A DNA stretch of 16,115 nucleotides, taken from assembly GCA_026770575.1 (NCBI GenBank), contig MU657219.1, positions 263,115-279,229 on the forward strand, given 5' to 3'. The DNA is from Pelagophyceae sp. CCMP2097. Taxonomy: Eukaryota; Sar; Pelagophyceae. The translations under genes were made by a program, and so were the position numbers. Below are positions 1,912-13,892 of this stretch, in pieces. Under the pieces are notes generated by a model that was given only the letters and a program-made list of their open reading frames with translations, had not been told where the DNA came from and did no database searches. Positions within the stretch are counted from its first letter, which is position 1, and each line of letters starts with the position of its first letter.

Positions 1912-4900
1912 CTAGAGGATGGGGTTGGGTTCCTTTTTCGGCGGGTTCTTGCGGATAAAGTCGAGCACATCTTGCACGACCTTCGCCGCCGTCTCGCGCG
2001 GCAGCTCGTCTAAAGACTCAACACTAACAGAAACGTCCGCTTGGTCGTAGAAACCCGTCCTTTCTTCCAAAATCCGCGAAATGTCGCTTGCGTCCTTCAA
2101 CAGCGGCCTCGATTCCATCTCGGCGCCGAGGAGGCGCGCCTCCAAGACGTCGACGGCGGGGTTGATCCAGACGACGATTCCAGACCTGGTTTTTGAGTTA
2201 AGCGGAGAAGTACTAGAGAGGAATTGTATCGAGCAATCCTCTAAAACCGACGCCCCCCCCCCCCGCCTCACCGGAGCGCGGCCCAGTTGGCCGTCTGCGT
2301 GACAATCCCGCCGCCGGTGCCGACCACCAGGCGGACGTAGGCGGCGACCTAGGGGAATACGATAGGAATGCTCTAGAATCCTAAAGAAATCCTCTACCTG
2401 GTTGAGGATCATGCCTTCGGCTTTCCGGAACGCGTCTTCGCCCTCCGCCGCGAAGAACTCGGCGACGGTGGAGTTCATGGCCGTCTCCAGCGTGGAGTCC
2501 GTGTCGACAAAGGCGTAGGAACCTATAGTATTTCCTATAGTATTTCCTATAGTATTTCCCATTGCCGAGAGGTTTGCCGATTCCCGAGAGCAACTTCCGA
2601 CAGATGGGGCTGCACCCGCCCCGGAAGACCCCGCGCTTCAGGGCCGCCTCGACGGCACCGTCGAGACGGACGTCTCAAGGACAGAAGGCCGCCAAAGAGG
2701 CCGTTTTGAGACCAGGAGCAGAGACGGCTTCGGGTTTGCCCTTCAACCCGCGGGTCGGGTTTGCCGGGTTTGCGCGTTTTGGCCGACCCGTGTACCCGCG
2801 GGTCTGGCCGTGGCCCGAACCCGAACCCGACCCGAGAAGACGGGTTTGGTCGCAAAGACAAACCCGTGACCCGAGAGTGCGGCACACATTGAAAAGCTCT
2901 CCGGACGGGCCCCTACAAGGCCTCTTGGGCGGCCGCTTACAAGGCCTCTGCATGGTCACTTGAAAGGCCTCTTTGAAGGGTCCTATCAAGCCCCCACGCA
3001 GGGTTCTTTATCAGAGACGCGTGTTCGGGCCCTTACGGGGTTCCTTCACCGTTCCTCGCATGAGATGCCATATGGTTCGATAGCGGTGCGAGGGCCCGTC
3101 CAAGCGACCGCCCGAGGATCCGCCCAGGTGACGTCGCAGAGGGGCCGCAGTCGAGGAGCCGACAGCCGAGTGACCGTCCACGGGGCCGTCGAGAAACCGC
3201 CGTCAAAACGACTGTCACAGAGGGCCCGTCGAGGGACCGTCCAAGGAACTGTCCAAAGGGAACGTCCAAGGGACCGCCCAAGCGACCGTCCGAGGGAGCG
3301 TCAGAGGGACCATCCAAGCGACCGTCCGAGGGCCCGTCCGACAGACCACCCAGAGGGACGCAGAGGGGCCGCAGTCGAGGAGACGGCAGCCGAACGACCG
3401 CCCAAGAGACCGTTCGAGAAACCTTACACGGGACTGCCGCAAAGGGACCGACGAGGGCCGTCCAAGGGACCGGTCGAAGGGACCGTCGATAGGCCCGTCA
3501 AAGGGGTCGTCCACGGAACCGTCGCAGATGGACTGTCCGAAGGATCGCCCAAGGAACATTCCAAAGGAAGTGTCCAAAGGACCGCCCAAAGACCGTCCGA
3601 GGGACCGTTCGAGGGACCATCCAAATGACCGTCCGAGGGACCGTCCACGGGACCGTCGCAGAGGACCCGTCGAGGGCTCGTCGAGAGATAGCTTAAGAGA
3701 CTGCAAAGGGAACTGTCCAAAAGGATTGTCCAAAGGCCCGCCCAAGAGACCGTCGCAGGGTCCGTCCGAGGGTCCGCCCGCGGGACGTCGCAGAGGGACC
3801 GCAGTCGAGCGCCCATCCAAACGACCACTCCATGGACCGTCCACGGGACTGTCGGAGAGGGACCGTCGAGGGACCGTCAAGGGGCCCTCCAAAGGACCCT
3901 CCAATGAAACTGTCCAAAGGAACTGTTCAAAGGACCGCTCAAGGGACCGTCGAGGGACCATCCAATCGACCGTCCGAAAGACCGACTGAGCGACCGTCCG
4001 AGCGATCGTCTGAGCGACCGTCCGAGCGAATGTTCGAGGGCCCGTCGAGGGGACATCGCAGAGAGGGGCTGCAGTCGAGGGGCCGGCAGCCGAGTGACTG
4101 TCCAAGGGACCGTCGAGGGGCCGCCAATCAAAGCGACCGTCACAGAGGGCTCGTCGAGGGACCCTCAAAGGAACTGTCCTAAGGAATTGTCCAAGGGACC
4201 GCCCAAGCGACGGTCCGAGGGACCGTCCGAGCCTCCCGAGGGGCCGTCTCAAAGGCTTCGTTTCGCATGGCCATCGAAAGGAGCCATCTTGAGGAGCCGT
4301 CTCGAGGGGCCGTCTCGAGGAGCCGTTTCAAAAAGCCGTCTCCAGGGGTCATTTCGAGGCACCGTCCCGAGGAGCCATCTTAAGGCGTCGTTTCGAATGG
4401 TTATCGAAAGGGGCCGTCTCGAGGGGCCGGAGAGAGGAGCTTTCCCGAGGCGCCGTCTCGAGGGGCCGTCGAAACGGCGCCGTGTCGAATGGCCATCGAA
4501 AGGGACCATCTCGAGGCACCGTCTCGAGGGGCCGTCTCGAGGGGTCGTCTCAAGGCGCTGTCTCGAATGGCCGTCTCCAGGGGCCGTCTCGAGGGATCGT
4601 CTCAAGGCGCCGTTTCGAGTGGCCGTTTCGAGGCACCTTCTCGATGGGCCGTCTCAAGAAGCCGAAACGAATGACAGTCAAAAGAGGCCGTCTCGAGGGG
4701 CCTTCTCGAAGCGCCGTCCCAAGGCGCCGTTTCGAGTAGTCGTCTCAAAGGGCCGTCTCGAATGGTCGTCTCCAGGGGCCGTCTCCAGGGGCCGTCTCCA
4801 GGAGCCGGAGATAGGAGCAGGGAGGGGTTTGGGTTTGCCCTTCAACCCGCGGGTCGGGTTTACCGGGTTTGTGCGTTTTGGCGAACCCGCAACCCGCGGG

Positions 4901-5724
4901 TTTGGCCGTGGCCCGAACCCGAACCCGACCCTTCGAAGACGGGTTTGGTCGCTTGACAAACCCGCGACCCGAGGGTACGCCACAAATTGAAAACCCGACC
5001 CGACCCGAATAGACCGTCCCTGGTCCTGATTTCGAGGCCGTCGAGACGGCTTCGAGACCGTCTTCAGGGCCGCCTCGACGGCACCGTCGAGATGGACCTG
5101 TTCGGCCGCCTCGACGGCCCGCCAAAGAGTTTGTCTTGAGGTCGTCTTCTCGGCCGTCAAAGGGGCCGCCTTTTTGGCCAGACGTCGTCTGGAAGAATAT
5201 CACAGGCCCGTCTTCGGGCGCGTCTCGGAACTTTCCGGGGTCCAGACCGTCTTCGGGCCTCTGCAAGGCCGTCCCGGGCCTCTCTTCATTCGGGGGCATC
5301 GGGCCGCACCGAGCATGCGCGTCAGCTCGTCGCCGACGGACGACTTGCCACAGCCTAGGGAGCGGGAGGCGTAGGCAGCGGGAGGCGTCGTATAGGATCC
5401 CGATCGGAAACGTATAGGAAGACGTACCCATCATGCCGACCAAGTAAAGGTTCGTCCCTTTCAACTGCTCCGCCAGCAGCCGCCCCGCCTCCGTCGACGC
5501 CGAAGCGGCCTAAAGTAGCGAGTCGGCCGCAGACCGCCGCATCAAGGGCTCTCGAAGAGGCGAGAGCGCCACACTAAAGGCTCTCGAGAAGAGGCGTCGT
5601 ATTGTACTTTGGAAACCCCGCTCGGCCTATCTCTACGCACCGCGTGTAGGCGCGTATGGCGGGCGTGGCGCCGCTGCGGGACGAGGCCCGAGACGGCCGC
5701 GAGGCCAATCAGCAGGAAAAACAT
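1912..5724 (-). CDS. SK: Shikimate kinase, plastid-targeted, six exons
   Basis: Shikimate kinase phosphorylates shikimate with ATP to give shikimate 3-phosphate in aromatic amino-acid synthesis, here probably in the plastid stroma. Exons on the minus strand: 5724-5641, 5509-5428, 5354-5310, 2522-2398, 2348-2272 and 2185-1912. They join in frame to 228 residues. Visible motifs: P-loop GMMGCGKS (residues 53-60), DTD (77-79), FR at 102-103, GTGGGIV (122-128), the lid RPLL (164-167) and the ERTGFY segment (179-184). All the usual catalytic landmarks are present, so it should be an active enzyme, not a kinase-like paralogue. The first exon (MFFLLIGLAAVSGLVPQRR then Arg/His-rich) looks like a signal peptide plus transit peptide. 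Donors are GTGCGT, GTACGT, GTGCGG, GTAGAG and GTGAGG; every acceptor is AG. Intron 3 (2523-5309, 2787 nt) makes up about 73% of the gene and carries a satellite element. The start at 5724 was chosen because it opens the hydrophobic presequence. Confidence 0.93.
2523..2560 (-). repeat. 12-bp triplicate at the kinase intron 3 acceptor
   Basis: In the sense of the kinase, the intron ends with three copies of GGAAATACTATA followed by G, so CTATAG|G acceptors occur every 12 nt. The downstream one (2523/2522) restores the kinase frame. Because 12 nt is four codons, use of an upstream acceptor would add NTIG-type tetrapeptides without breaking the frame. TACTAT also resembles a branch-site core. Confidence 0.85.
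2719..2895 (-). repeat. CGGGTT-rich module, copy in the 3' part of kinase intron 3
   Basis: About 175 bp, near-identical to 4816-4995 in the same orientation. On the plus strand the shared blocks are GGGTTTGCCCTTCAACCCGC, CGTTTTGGC, GGCCGTGGCCCGAACCCGAA, GACGGGTTTGGTCGC, and an end of ACATTGAAAA type. The plus strand is built of degenerate CGGGTT/AACCCG steps. A third, partial copy lies in the La gene intron (6560-6660). Confidence 0.85.
2960..4250 (-). repeat. 12-bp tandem array in kinase intron 3
   Basis: Degenerate tandem units of 12 bp, consensus about AAGGGACCGTCC on the plus strand; clean runs occur around 3240-3350 and 3590-3660. A longer marker (GCAGAGGGGCCGCAGTCGAG and variants) recurs near 3136, 3362, 3790 and 4059, so there is a higher-order layer with irregular spacing of about 230-430 bp. 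Long open frames on both strands (for example 3215-4252 minus and 2960-3628 plus) follow from the stop-poor unit and read as RDRP- or SLGR-like tetrapeptides; they are not credible genes. Confidence 0.9.
4251..4815 (-). repeat. 13-bp tandem array in kinase intron 3
   Basis: Degenerate tandem units of 13 bp, consensus GGGCCGTCTCGAG on the plus strand, with very few interruptions from about 4285 to 4805. The unit is one base longer than the neighbouring 12-bp unit (GAGGGGCCGTCTC against GAGGGACCGTCC), so the two arrays look like relatives. Thirteen is not a multiple of three, so each frame cycles through the same 13-residue peptide; that explains the open frames here. Confidence 0.92.
4816..4995 (-). 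repeat. CGGGTT-rich module, copy in the 5' part of kinase intron 3
   Basis: A direct repeat of 2719-2895, so the 13-bp and 12-bp arrays are bracketed by two same-orientation modules, a layout reminiscent of terminal direct repeats. In the kinase sense it begins TTTTCAATTTGTGGCG and runs through GCGGGTTTGTCAAGCGACC and AAACCCGTCTT. The La intron copy has the equivalent TCAATCTGTGCC, GCGGGTTTGTCGAGCGACC and AAGCCCGTCTT at 6560-6620. Confidence 0.87.
4996..5309 (-). other. 5' end of kinase intron 3, degenerate repeat
   Basis: Between the CGGGTT module and the exon 3 donor (GTGCGG at 5309) the intron holds degenerate CGTCTTC/GAGACGG-type sequence. One block (CTTCAGGGCCGCCTCGACGG, about 5062-5090) also occurs at about 2637-2666, outside the other module. 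No coding sequence is expected here. Confidence 0.6.
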
Positions 5725-5796
5725 GCTTCTCGCCGAATCATGAACGTCGCCGAAAGAGCGCAAGTGCACATTCCGTCGCCCTTCAGAGAAGACAGC
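5725..5796. promoter_or_regulatory. 72-bp divergent intergenic region between the kinase and La starts
   Basis: The kinase ATG (5724, minus) and the La ATG (5797, plus) face away from each other with 72 bp between them. The two promoters and 5' leaders must therefore overlap or extend into the partner gene. No TATA box is visible. The La frame stays open upstream of 5797 (to ATGs at 5740 and 5656), but that would extend it into the kinase presequence, so 5797 in a GACAGCATGG context is preferred. Confidence 0.7.
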
Positions 5797-8700
5797 ATGG
5801 CGGCCCCCGACGCGCCCGCGGTGGTCCCCGCCGTTGCGGCCGAGGCGGCGGTCGTTGCGGAGGCGGCGGCGCCGACGGCGGCCGACGCGGAGCTCGTGCT
5901 CTCCAAGGTCCTGCGCCAGTTGGAGTACTACTTCTCCGACGCCGCGTTTCCGTTCGACGACTACATGCAGTCACTGCTCGATTCAGAGGGATACGTGGAG
6001 GTGGCCAAGCTCACGGTGCGTTCCCGCGGGCGGTAGACGACCCACGGGCGTAGAAGGACGCGGGCGTCGAAGGCCTACGGGCGTCGAAGAAGGTGTTTCC
6101 TAATGCGCTCCGTAGGCCTTCCCGAAGATGCAGACGATCACCAAGGACGCCGCTGTCGTGTCGAAGGCGCTGGCGGAAAGCGACAGTTTGGAGGTGCGTT
6201 TCTATAGGAATTCCTATAGGAATTCCTATAGGATTCTATAGTATTCTATTCTATAGTCTTCTATAGTCTTCTAGAGCAATTCCTTTTGGCCCCGCCCCAC
6301 CCGGGGTGGATCTGAAGCGAGCCATCCCGTTTCTTGGAGCGCCGTGCGCCTTCCTCGCGGCCCCTGCAAGAGCCTCTAGGTCGACGACCAAGCCCTTCGC
6401 GTGCGCCGCAAGTACCCTCTACCAGACGTCGACCCCAACGCCGCCCTCACGGTCCACGTCTCCGGGTTTGCGACGGTCGCAGGCGAGGAAACCCGCGTCG
6501 GCATGCAAGGAGGGGGCAACGACTCGAAATTCGGAGCAGGGGCGGTGTGTTCGAGTTGCTCAATCTGTGCCAAACCCAAAGGGTGGCGGGTTTGTCGAGC
6601 GACCAAGCCCGTCTTAAAAGGGTCTGACCCGCGAGGAAGACGGAAAGGCCAAAACGTCTCGACGACCCCTCGAGACGGCGCTTGGAGACGGCCACTCGAA
6701 ATGGCGCCTTGGGACGGCGCTTCGAGCAGGCCCCGTCTCGACGGCCCCTTTCGGCGGCCCTTTGAAACGGCGCCTTGAGACGGTGCCTCGAGACGGCCAT
6801 TCTGAGACGGTGCCTTTAGACGGCCCCTGGAGATGCCCCCTGGAGACGGCCGTTCGAGACGGCGCCTTGAGACGGCCCTCGAGACGGTGCCTCGAGACGG
6901 CCCTTTTCCATGTCCATTCGAAACGGCGCCTTGAAACGGTCCCTCGAGACGGCCCCTCGAAATGGCGCCTCGAGAAGGCTCCTCTCTCCGGGCCCTCGAG
7001 ACAGCCTCTGGAGACGGCCATTCGAAAAGGCCCTTCGAGACGGCTTCTCGAGACGGCTTCTCAAGAAGACCCCTTGACACGACCCCTCAAGACGAACCCC
7101 TCGAGACGGCCCTTTCGATGGCCATTCAAAACGGCGCCTTGAGACGTTTGAAACCCTCGAGAGGCTCGGACGGTCTCTCGAATAGTCGCTTGGGCGGTCC
7201 CTTGGACAGTTCCTTTGACAGCCCCACGACGGTCCCTCCGTGACGGTCGCTTTGACGGCGGTTTCTCGACGGTCCCTTGGACGTGACCACTCGGCTGCGG
7301 CCCTGAAACGTCCCCTGGACGGGCCCTCGGACGGTCGCTCGCACGGGCGCTCGGACGGCCCCTCGGAGTCGCCGCGGTGGCCGGGTCTCTTGCAAGGAAC
7401 CCTGCGCGGGGGCTCTTCAAGGGGCCTTGAAAAGGCCTCGCGAGCGACGGCGCATTCTGCCTTTGCGAGTGGCCTCGAAAGAGGCCTCGCAGGGGCCGTC
7501 CTTCCGGGCTCTGAACGGGCCCTCGTGCGGTCTCTTCGCCGCCGACCGGAGTATTGCCCCTCGAGCCTTGGAGACGAGGCTTCTCGAGGCGGGCCCTCTG
7601 CTTCTCGAGGCGGGCCCTCTGCTTCTCGAGGCGGGCCCTCTGCTTCTCGAGGCGGGCCTTTGAGCGAATGCCCTCTCGAGACGGCCCCTAATACGGTCCT
7701 GTGGAGGCGGGTCTTTCGAAACGGGCCCGGGACGGCGGTTCTGGGCTCTCGACGGGCCCTAAAGAGACGGCCTCTCTCAATCGCATCGACGGGCCCCCTC
7801 TGGACGGTCCTTCGGTGACCCCTCTCACGGTCCTGTCTATAGACGGCCCCTCGTACGGTTTCCGTCGACGGACAGTCCCTCGAGACGAAACTTGATGGTC
7901 CCTTTGGCAGCTGCTTCCCCTATAGACGGGCCCAATCGAATGGCTCTATAGACGGTCCCGAGCGACGGCCCTCTCTACACTGCCCTTTGGATGGTCCCCT
8001 CTAGACGAGTTTTAGAGACGGGCCTCGATCGACCTCAAGAAGGGCCGTTCGTTCAGTCCGTTTGAGAAAGTCGTTGTGAGACGGATCCTCTCGGCGGTCT
8101 TTGAGAGGCGGCCCCCTCGGACAAGGCCCCCTCTGGAAAAAACGAGAGACGGGCCCTCGGCAAGGCGGCCTCGCAACGAGGCAGTGCAACTAGGCAAAGA
8201 AGCAACCGAGACCAAAATCGCCGCGGCTATGGCCAAGCACGGCCCGGTCTCTTCCGTCCGAGCGCTGCGCGACCTTGCAAAGGACGCCCGCGCGCTGGAC
8301 GGGTCGGCCTTTGTCGTCTACGAAACCGCCGAGGCCGCCCTGGCTGCAGTCAAGGCCAACGGCGGGGTTCGCGACGGGCGCAAGATTGGCGTGTACGCGG
8401 TGCTGGTACGTCACGACTTGCATGCCTTTGATGATGATCTGTCTTGCATCCTCCCCCTTTTTGCCGCACATTGACTCTGTAGGACTGGTTTGACCGCCAA
8501 AAGAAGAAGAAGGAGTCCATGGCCAAAAAGCGCACCTCGAAACGAGATCGCGAGGAAACGGAGGAGGCCGAGGCCGAAGCCGCCTTCACCGTGGTTTCGG
8601 GCGTGGTGCTCAAGTTTGCCGGGCTCGGGGGGACCGAGGCGTCTCGCGAAGATCTCAAAGGGGTGATCGAGAAACATGCGACTGTGAAATACGTCGAGTA

Positions 8701-9999: not shown

Positions 10000-10220
10000 C
10001 ATCCATTCGTACCTATGTTGATCGTGGATACCGCCCTCGAGGTGCGGTACTTTGGCCACTGGGGCGCCCCTGGGTGCTTTCTTAGCACGTCGACCACTTT
10101 TTGCGTATCGTCGGCGCCCCAGTGGCCAAACAAAGTGCCGCACCTCGAGGGCGGTATCCATTCGTACCTATGTTGAGCGCGGATACCGCTCTCGAGGTGC
10201 GGCACTTTGGCCACTGGGGC
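10000..10220. repeat. Three-armed hairpin repeat
   Basis: Arm 1 (10028-10068, starting ATACCGCCCTCGAGGTGCGG) is almost fully complementary to arm 2 (10113-10157), apart from a small bulge, with a loop of about 45 nt. Arm 3 (10183-10220) is a direct copy of arm 1 and can also pair with arm 2. A CATTCGTACCTATGTTGA block precedes arms 1 and 3. The structure permits two mutually exclusive stems. Confidence 0.87.
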
Positions 10221-10832: not shown

Positions 10833-11468
10833 TCATTCTAGCGATAATACGGTTCTTAGAGGTAAATTTCGGCGGTTGTATAACACATGGGGGCGTTTGT
10901 AGCGCGCGCGAGCATGCGCCTATTTGAAACACATGCGAAGGCTTTCTGGGCCATATGTCGACATCCACCGCGGCGCAGGAGGACGGCTCCTGGGTCATAT
11001 GTCCAACGCCAGCTAGGCACAGGAGTATGGCGCGCCAGACGCGTTTGAAAGCACTAACGCTCATCAGCTTGCCTAGGTGACTAATACGAAAAAGCGGAAA
11101 AGCGTCTAAAACGTGCGTTTTCGGGCCTATAGTCTTGCCTCAGGTCAAGGACGTAGAGTACGATGATCGGGTGCGTTCGTCCGTGAGAGTTGACACGATT
11201 GAGTAAGATTCAGAGAAAACACGAAGAAACGTTCTCGCGCGTGATACGGACGGACTTGTAGGTCTTCAAACGTCAGCTATACCTAAGATAATAATTCTCT
11301 TAGGGACATGAGACTTACGAAGAGATGGGCACAAAAGGAATTGGCGCTTGCGAAGAGGTGAATAAACTACAAGCAACCTCACGTGATACTGTGACGTCAA
11401 AAATTGAAAACGAAAGCGGCTTCGCCGCAAACGGAAGATGGGAGGCATCCAAAGGCTGCGCCGCCAGA
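10833..11468 (+). repeat. Left inverted arm of the foldback element (copy C)
   Basis: 636 bp. From the outside it carries the tip GTCATTCTAGCGATAATACG, the conserved GCGTCTAAAACGTGCGTTTT block (11102-11121), GTACGATGATCGGGTGCGTT, and the inner edge CTGCGCCGCCAGA. It is about 80 bp longer than the right arm because of indels. Confidence 0.83.
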
Positions 11469-11504
11469 TGGGGTAGTAGAAGCCCATCAGTAGCAACCCT
11501 TCAG

Positions 11505-11560
11505 TAGCAACCCTTCAGTAGGCACCCTTCAGCCCGCTTGCCCCCTACGGGGGCCCCTTT
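11505..11560 (+). repeat. Dispersed GAGTAGGCG / CTACGGGGGCCCC repeat, copy 2
   Basis: Holds CAGTAGGCACCCTTCAGCCC, GCTTGCCCC and CTACGGGGGCCCCT. It is preceded by the small tandem repeat AGTAGCAACCCTTC (11489-11517). It lies inside the foldback element just past the left arm, unlike copies 1 and 3, which lie outside a terminal tip. Confidence 0.65.
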
Positions 11561-12229
11561 GGCGCTCGACCGCTGCGGTGAGAGCAGAGCGCACCAACGA
11601 AAGGGGCCATCTCGTGGAGCGCCCGAACCCCCTTTCGGCGGTGCCGCCGCTTGGGACACGGACCCCCCCAAAGCGCCGCCGCGCACCGGGCTTTTCCGCG
11701 ACGGGCGCGACGTTGCGACCGTCCTTGAGACGAATGCCCATTTTCGAACGCAGCGCTCGCGTTGACATTTCTTAGGAGAGGCGCCGACGCGAGGTCGGCG
11801 TAGGGGGAGGGCGCCCCTCGAACGTGCGCTTTATCCCTGAGCTTGCTCGTGCGTCGCCTGCTCCGCTCGTCCACTCGATGCGGCCGCCTCGAGTGCAGCG
11901 ACCGCTCGATGAAAACAAAAATGATTTGATTAATTCTTCACTTTAGAGAGACTCTGTCGAATTAGTTTCGGGTGTTCTGTGAGAGCTTGGCCGGCGTGCA
12001 GTAACAAGGAGCCTCGAGAGCGTTTTGAAATCCTCCTATACCGCAGGCCCGCGTCCTCGTCGGACGCGGCCCACCCGTCAGGTATACTCGGTGGTCTCTT
12101 TCTACGGCAATCTTTGGAGCACTCTTAATCACTGCTCGTCCACGCCCTGCTCTTCAACGACACGCGTCGCGTAAGCCACCCCCCGAGCAGATTTGAGTAG
12201 GCCAGTTTTTGGGAGGCTAATCTGTCTAA
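11561..12229. other. Foldback element interior without a recognised gene
   Basis: GC-rich sequence to about 11890, then a more AT-rich stretch (GATTTGATTAATTCTTCAC), then mixed sequence including CCTCCTATACCGCAGG. Short open frames at 11501-11874 on both strands show no recognisable domain. Nothing convincing as a transposition gene was found. Confidence 0.5.
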
Positions 12230-13338
12230 GACGGCACACCTGCCGGATGCGGAGCAGCCGCAAAGAGCGGCGCAGCCGGCGGAGGTGGCTAAGCCGTCGG
12301 AGGCGGCTAAGCCGCCGGATGCGGTCCAGCCTCCTCTGATGGCGCAGTTGCTGGAGAAGGCTAATCCACCAGAGGCGGCGCAACCGCCGAAGGCGGCCCA
12401 TCCTCTTCTGGCGGCGCATCTGTTGAATGCGTCGCATCCTCCTTTTGCGGCGGCGAAGTCGCAATCGTTTACAATTTTTGATGTAGCCGCCAAAGGCGGC
12501 TCAGCCTTTTCCTGCGGTGAAGCCGCCAGAGGCGGCGCATCCGCCGAAGGCGGCATTGCTTCCTCCTGTGACAAATACACCTCTTCCACTGCAGTCGGCG
12601 TAGCCGCCGAAGTCGGCCCATCTTCTTCCTGCGGCGAAGCCGCCAGATGCAGCGCATCCGCCGAAGGCGGCATTGCTTCCTCTTGCGACGAATATACCTC
12701 TTCCGCCGAAGTATTCGGACCCGCCGGAAGCGGCTCAGCCGCCGAAGGCGGCTCAGCCGCCGGAGGTAGTGTAGCCGCCAATGGTGGCTCAGCCGCCAAA
12801 GGCGGCGTAGCCGCCTATAGCGGCATAGCCGCCGAAGGCAGCTCAACTGCCGAAGGCGGCTTAGCCGCCAAAAGCTGCCCAGCCGCCGAAGGCGGCTCAG
12901 ACGCCGAAGGCGACTCAGCCGCTGATAGCGGCGTAGCCGCCGAAGGCGACTCAGCCGCCGAAGTCGGCGTAGCCGCCAATGGCTGCTCAGCCACCTAAGG
13001 CGGCTCAGCCGCCTAAGGCGGCATAGCCGCCTAAGGCTGCTCAGCCGCCGGAGTCAGTGTAGCCCCCAAAGGCGGCCCAGCCGCCGGAGGCGACGTAGCC
13101 GTCGAAGTCAGCGTAGCCGCCGAAGGCTGCTCCTGCGCCTGAGGCAGCGTAACCGCCGGAGGCGGCGTAGCCGCCTAAGGCTGCTCTGTTGCCTTAGACG
13201 GCTTAGCCGCCTGAGGCGGCGTAGCCGCCGAAAGCGGCCCAGTCTCTTCCTGCGGTGAAGCCGCCAGAGGCAGCGCATCCGCCGAAGACAGCCTTGCTTT
13301 CTCCTATGACCATCACGCCTGTGGCGGCCCTGCCTCCT
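12230..13338. repeat. GCCGCC/GGCGGC palindromic tandem core
   Basis: About 1.1 kb of degenerate units of the form GCCGCCGAAGGCGGCTCA (also GTA or ATA spacers), period mostly 15-18 bp. Each unit is itself a small palindrome (AGCCGCC-n3-GGCGGCT). A longer unit of about 110 bp, with GGCATTGCTTCCTC and TACACCTCTTCC, occurs at about 12545-12600 and 12660-12710, with a weaker relative at about 13245-13330. A degenerate copy of the right-arm inner edge lies at 12411-12482. Open frames at 12285-12998 plus and 12125-12799 minus are Ala/Pro/Gly repeats on both strands, so neither is a convincing gene. Confidence 0.85.
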
Positions 13339-13892
13339 CTGGCGGCGCAGCTTTTGGATGCCTCGCATCCTCCGTTTGCGATGATGTTACTTTCGAATCA
13401 TTTTTTAACGTTTCAGTATCACGTGAGGTTGCTTATAGTTTCCTCACCCCCCTGCAAGCGTCGATTCTTTTTGTGCCCATCTCTTCGTTTGTCGCATGTC
13501 CCTTAAGGGCGTTAATATCTTACCTATAGCTGACGTGTGAAGTCCTACAAGTTCGTCCGTATAGCGCACGTTTTCTTTTTGGTGTTAACTCCTTCTCATA
13601 CGTCACATCTTCAACGGCCAAACGCACCCGATCATTATACTCTACTTCCTTGACCTCGGGCGAGACTATAGGCTCGAAAACGCACGTTTTAGACGCTTCT
13701 CAGCGTTTTCTTACTTGTCACCTATAAAAGCTGAATAACGTTTGTGCTGTTAAACGCGCTTGGCGGACCTTCCTTCTGCGCCGCCCTACGTCTCGACATA
13801 CCCCACAGAAAGCCTTCACTCGACGTTCTAATAGGCGCACCTTCGCGCGCGCTACAAACGTTTGAAAACCGTTTATCGCTAAAATGGCCCTT
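13339..13892 (-). repeat. Right inverted arm of the foldback element (copy D)
   Basis: 554 bp, the reverse complement partner of 10833-11468. The inner edge is TCTGGCGGCGCAG and the outer tip is CGTTTATCGCTAAAATGGCC. The conserved CGAAAACGCACGTTTTAGAC block is at 13676-13695. Confidence 0.83.

Follow-up and report, generated by a model that had tools for sequence, protein, structure and literature searches.

The locus and the two element copies

We analysed a stretch of 16,115 nucleotides from the Arctic alga Pelagophyceae sp. CCMP2097 (the window; contig MU657219.1, positions 263,115 to 279,229), in which two genes on opposite strands each carry, within a long third intron, a copy of the same satellite-built element. 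The first, on the minus strand, encodes a shikimate kinase (Pfam SKI, E 5.6e-37 with the exons joined), and the second, on the plus strand, a La-type RNA-binding protein (La domain, E 1.4e-15, together with RRM_1 and RRM_3). The third gene of the window, on the minus strand, encodes dynein axonemal light chain 1. The exons of the dynein and La genes match CCMP2097 protein records and are identical to them outside junctions and introns.

Shikimate kinase intron 3 (2523-5309, minus strand, 2787 bp, GT-AG) is missing from an identical transcript-derived protein, P0126, whose sequence is that of the spliced kinase, with MLG|SYAF at the junction. P0126 belongs to the MMETSP set, which stems from a transcriptome project. 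La intron 3 (6483-8193, plus strand, 1711 bp) is taken out as a GC-AG intron in P0121, the public CCMP2097 gene model of the La gene, a prediction that reads ATVAG|KEATETK. An earlier note, made from the sequence alone, gave the kinase boundaries exactly; its La boundaries, about 6476-8180, are replaced by those above. Its expectation that both regions are spliced out holds for the kinase intron at the level of a transcript-derived protein and for the La intron at the level of the public gene model.

The same note proposed that one composite element fills both introns. Self-alignment of the window confirms a shared element, with 3990-4770 aligning to 7372-6661 over 801 bp (72% identity, E 3.9e-131), and Tandem Repeats Finder locates the arrays where they had been placed: 13-bp arrays at 4279-4807 and 6661-7112, and 12-bp arrays at 3221-4023 and 7313-7367. 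A module fragment in the La intron aligns with the module of the kinase intron over 111 bp (73%, E 5.6e-14). The GAACCCTGCG tail lies at about 7398 and, inverted, at about 2991-3010. Read in element orientation, a copy begins with an inverted repeat and the left module, continues with sub-repeats, the 12-bp array and the 13-bp array, and closes with the right module and an inverted repeat; two direct modules of about 200 bp thereby stand around the arrays.

Copy 1, in the kinase intron, spans 2713-5028 on the plus strand in element orientation and is antisense to the kinase. Its module is present twice in direct orientation (87% identity). The left module, typed as left, covers 2713-2895 and includes the left terminal inverted repeat (2713-2727); the right module covers 4813-5028 and includes the right one (5014-5028). 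Each end has one mismatch to the 15-bp inverted repeat. Between the modules lie, also on the plus strand, the 12-bp array zone (3090-4231) and the 13-bp array. The copy is long because this 12-bp zone has grown by internal duplication (3090-3306 and 4012-4231, 83%). Copy 2, in the La intron, spans about 6532-7547 on the minus strand in element orientation and is antisense to La; sequence common to other loci extends to about 7600. On the same strand it carries its 13-bp array and the collinear block (7150-7440), which includes the 12-bp array. We looked for its left module and did not find it, and its inner end is approximate. Relative to its host gene each copy points the same way, as the note held. 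The element is present in both introns and runs end to end in neither, accounting for 2316 of 2787 bases of the kinase intron and about 1016 of 1711 bases of the La intron.

A dispersed family with defined ends

The genome searched, that of CCMP2097 or of a near-identical strain, comprised 66.2 Mb in 638 contigs (C and L numbers below denote contigs and fetched loci); the published CCMP2097 genome is given as 85.8 Mb with 27% repeats and 62% GC (PMC9756366). The module core has 186 matches at one mismatch or fewer, and 209 matches to a 27-bp right end, with three mismatches allowed, are spread across many contigs; the reversed pattern gave 0 in both cases. The element is common to up to 65 of 68 fetched loci, excluding hits above 99% identity. 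Coverage by these loci in 100-bp bins falls to 7 and then 0 on the left of the kinase copy and to 0 on its right; at the La copy it is 0 on the left and 0-1 on the right. The loci were picked by matching the element, so this coverage marks edges rather than frequency. DNA of the kinase intron immediately to the right of the element matches, apart from itself, three places only weakly and in part, one of which is on the far side of that intron. These results, including those of the module as a genome-wide query, support the earlier suggestion of a kilobase-sized, satellite-built mobile family with several copies inside introns. No description of the family was found in literature searched by titles and abstract openings.

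Copies of the element end in CAGGAGCAGGGACGG and its reverse complement, 15-bp inverted repeats that were read from about 20 copies. Both ends are recognisable, with at most four mismatches, in 24 of 30 left-to-right elements, and these two-ended copies measure 1078-2474 bp. Their 8-bp flanks agree at 7-8 positions in 6 of the 24, compared with 0 of 552 pairs taken from different copies, and at six or more positions in 8 of the 24, compared with 7 of the 552 control pairs. The 8-bp duplication is perfect in the copies on C12, C27 and C42. Three elements with poorer ends have flanks matching at 6-7 positions, and three more places that match at 7-8 of 8 came to light when every pair of ends was scanned (L029, L036 and L064, the last a divergent copy of 570 bp). 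Duplications of 8 bp and CAGG ends fit the hAT superfamily, for which 8-bp duplications are known, although this length is not specific to hAT.

Position within introns

The earlier note compared the element to introners, which would mean that its insertion makes the host introns and that one orientation alone is spliced. Precedents exist among introners of the DNA type, some of which have inverted repeats or duplications, including an 8-bp duplication in Aureococcus sp. (PMC9860276), and copies of the present element do occur in introns. We measured the distance from splice sites to element in four introns, leaving out a fifth (the second copy on C83) whose donor string was not located. The gaps on the two sides are 281 and 190 bp for the kinase, 49 and 646 bp for La, 79 and 66 bp for C27, and 231 and 17 bp for C20, and 145-695 bp of other intron DNA lies beyond the element. 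In the C27 and C20 genes, both FAST-repeat-like, GT-AG joining restores the repeat motif (LANL|VWSYANAG and VWAFATAG|FEAP, respectively). In these four cases the element lies within an intron whose limits it does not set. Copies are found in either orientation, even within two adjacent introns of one FAST-repeat-like gene on C83. An introner-like role was rejected on the position of the splice sites, 17-646 bp outside the element, and we regard it as very unlikely. The element shares with introners its occurrence in introns as a non-autonomous DNA element, some introners having inverted repeats or duplications; it differs in not abutting the splice sites of the four introns, in showing no consistent orientation bias, and in size, being 1.1-2.5 kb long where the medians of introner families are 30-654 nucleotides (PMC9860276).

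Orientation relative to host genes

Coding segments around the copies were predicted with a codon model trained on the window exons and then extended on the loci. In a curated set, chosen by eye for exons of one gene on both sides of the copy, seven copies run antisense, in the kinase and La genes, in DNA polymerase A on C89 and in the FAST-repeat-like genes of C20, C27, C29 and C83 (its second copy), and four run sense, in an EamA-like transporter on C29, in MFS_1_like on C24 and in the FAST-repeat-like genes of C15 and C83 (its first copy). Without the window the count is five antisense and four sense. Support for the host genes is uneven: the matches to EamA (E 0.006) and to MFS_1_like (E 8.6e-4) both fall short of the Pfam cut-offs, and the last exon of DNA polymerase A aligns in order but weakly.

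An unselected count covered 70 element segments of at least 500 bp, the window included, with limited flanks. At a coding threshold of 16, 17 segments lay between coding sequences of the same strand (8 sense, 9 antisense, p 1.0), 4 had opposite strands, 22 were one-sided and 27 had none; at a threshold of 20 the same-strand class fell to 10 (3 sense, 7 antisense, p 0.34), with 3 opposite, 19 one-sided and 38 without. This automatic count misses weak exons and puts the kinase copy under opposite strands. A consistent orientation bias, which the earlier note had proposed, is not supported, and that both copies in the window agree would be chance, no more than a coin toss.

Many of the host genes encode large FAST/RAP-like repeat proteins with a LANTVWAFATAG motif, found in islands on C15, C20, C27, C29 and C83 (loci L034, L051, L053, L063, L080, L081 and L086). 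Some of these genes hold at least two element copies, in different introns and orientations.

A putative non-autonomous DNA transposon

The dispersal of the element together with the absence of reversed-pattern matches, the duplications, the near single-copy flank, the splice sites outside the element, the 8 sense and 9 antisense copies, and the lack of a Pfam match in four long frames of the kinase copy lead us to conclude that the composite is very probably a family of non-autonomous DNA transposons of the cut-and-paste type, with terminal inverted repeats of 15 bp and target-site duplications of 8 bp. Copies would be mobilised independently of one another by a trans-acting transposase and would land, in random orientation, in introns that were already there and elsewhere. 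The 12- and 13-bp arrays between the modules would expand and shrink. Genic copies would persist where the surrounding intron is still spliced.

Several observations weigh against this interpretation. In 16 of the 24 copies with recognisable ends the flanks match at fewer than six of eight positions; these include the kinase copy, which has no clear target-site duplication (4/8). We read the weak agreement as decay with age. A simple miniature element would not usually carry direct modules at its ends. No pair of element ends was found around the hAT-domain loci (spans of about 1.9-3.2 kb); the genome has nine hAT-domain matches, and a single left-end-like site, with three mismatches, lies in L074. 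Finally, random orientation does not predict the lean of one-sided flanks towards sense (at threshold 16, 16 sense and 6 antisense; at threshold 20, 15 and 4), which runs against the direction proposed in the earlier note and for which we have no explanation beyond short flanks and missed exons.

The direct modules raise the alternative of a retroelement of the long terminal repeat (LTR) type or its miniature TRIM type, with the modules as LTRs. Among 98 modules typed, 41 are left-type and 42 right-type, as such an element would have at its two ends; a further 8 stand between two units, and the remaining 7 are solo. However, the two modules of one copy resemble each other (83.8%, 27 pairs) no more than a left and a right module taken from separate copies do (83.0%, 702 pairs); between copies, left modules are 84.6% and right modules 83.0% identical. 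A tree of the modules mixes left and right with some clustering by side, showing 13 label changes compared with 18.3 in shuffles (as low as observed in 5 and 6 of 500 shuffles). The identities and the mixed tree argue against an LTR-like birth, and on these grounds the alternative was rejected. In addition, LTRs usually end in TG...CA and are flanked by duplications of 4-6 bp, whereas the ends here are inverted (CAGG...CCTG) with 8-bp duplications. The five solo modules read, of the seven, show no clear duplication or other insertion signature. We consider an LTR origin highly improbable. The module comparisons suggest that exchange takes place between element copies, and the places with extra units suggest unequal recombination.

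Gene conversion between the neighbouring introns, or a satellite that spread locally, is no more credible. In its favour, the arrays inside the element are genuine tandem repeats, and in some places two or more units follow one another, as the 8 modules between two units indicate. Nevertheless, right ends occur on many contigs, and the collinear block of the La copy is 74-80% identical to distant copies over nearly its whole length whereas the two window copies are 72% alike. Genome-wide dispersal, defined ends and the duplications already contradict a local process as the sole account; with the near single-copy flank added, it was rejected. A coding element was rejected, as four long frames of the kinase copy, the copy scanned, gave no Pfam match; an RNA gene, as window 2400-8300 gave five Rfam matches, none at the gathering score; and a tRNA-derived element, as no tRNA was found in the window.

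Known transposons offer partial parallels to the proposed DNA transposon. Non-autonomous hAT-type elements and miniature inverted-repeat transposable elements, such as Mar in Drosophila (PMC3517528), are the nearest in kind. Short terminal inverted repeats, the 8-bp duplications of hAT elements and no coding capacity found are common to them and the present element; the latter differs in that its kilobase-sized body consists of satellite arrays with a direct module on either side, and its transposase partner was not found. Tetris and other foldback elements are also non-autonomous and modular, with internal tandem repeats able to grow into satellites, and Tetris shares duplications of 8-9 bp and an unknown autonomous partner (PMC4079207). 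However, the repeats of Tetris lie within long inverted repeats, in contrast to the central arrays, direct long modules and mere 15 bp of inverted sequence found here. Galileo, of the P superfamily, is a DNA transposon with internal tandem repeats, but its inverted repeats are long and internally repetitive and its P-type transposase is known (PMC3573991 and PMC4079207).

Distribution among contigs

The family is strongly concentrated on some contigs. The listing of module-core matches is complete for contigs C1-C25, where they form 55 clusters. Fourteen of these contigs, with 53% of the length, have no module-core match, also when the best family matches are added, and none of 20,000 random placements was as uneven. 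One right end, with two mismatches, lies on C5, one of the 14. The right end at up to one mismatch gives the same picture by contig (28 places). Ribosomal S3Ae and L15e match once each, the former on C23, for which no copies are listed, and the latter on C2, for which one is; this argues against a mixture of two organisms. No GC difference was seen between element-rich and element-free contigs (6 of 10 samples usable against 23 usable, p 0.73; the rest are mostly N).

Other repeats

A second dispersed repeat, unrelated to the element, lies inside the La intron at approximately 7642-8021 (no strand assigned). It has 28 matches including itself; 20 candidate places were scored, and identity to about 20 places is 67-87%, some of them close to element copies. 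Short repeats resembling CTATAGGAATTCC terminate or fill introns at window 2522-2559 and 6200-6273, and in the kinase intron they yield a row of several TATAG acceptor-like sites. The intron motif CTATAGGAATTC, a palindromic pattern, is rare in exact form, with 13 forward and 13 reverse matches in the genome contigs. CGGGTCC-rich stretches that resemble the CGGGTT module adjoin hAT-domain open frames (L074 1167-1980 and L076 1115-1270) and are perhaps a related miniature family.

Elsewhere in the window, inverted repeats of about 460 bp (11016-11476 and 13330-13782, 78%) surround an 18-bp and 117-bp tandem array; 11016-13782 is a putative foldback-like, satellite-bearing element. Imperfect palindromes of about 105-145 bp (75-77%) occur at 611-719, 898-1040 and 10116-10220. 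Two of the three are copies of each other (86%), and all three are possible miniature inverted-repeat elements.

Implications

More tentatively, the transposon may have become a carrier by which GC-rich satellites are scattered into genes, with recombination between copies in its module-array-module body. The family would then be concentrated in one genome compartment, made up of contigs or chromosomes with their own repeat regime, and it may share mobilising machinery with the introners of pelagophytes that have 8-bp duplications. We consider this broader proposal possible but doubtful. The account given here replaces that of a giant, orientation-biased introner with one that is testable. It provides a repeat family of a pelagophyte, with ends that are defined and a signature of transposition, and a satellite-laden intron of 2.8 kb that is missing from a transcript-derived protein. 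The family shows that a DNA transposon, as we very probably have here, can carry satellite arrays into genes, and its clustering by contig, if confirmed, points to a compartmented algal genome.

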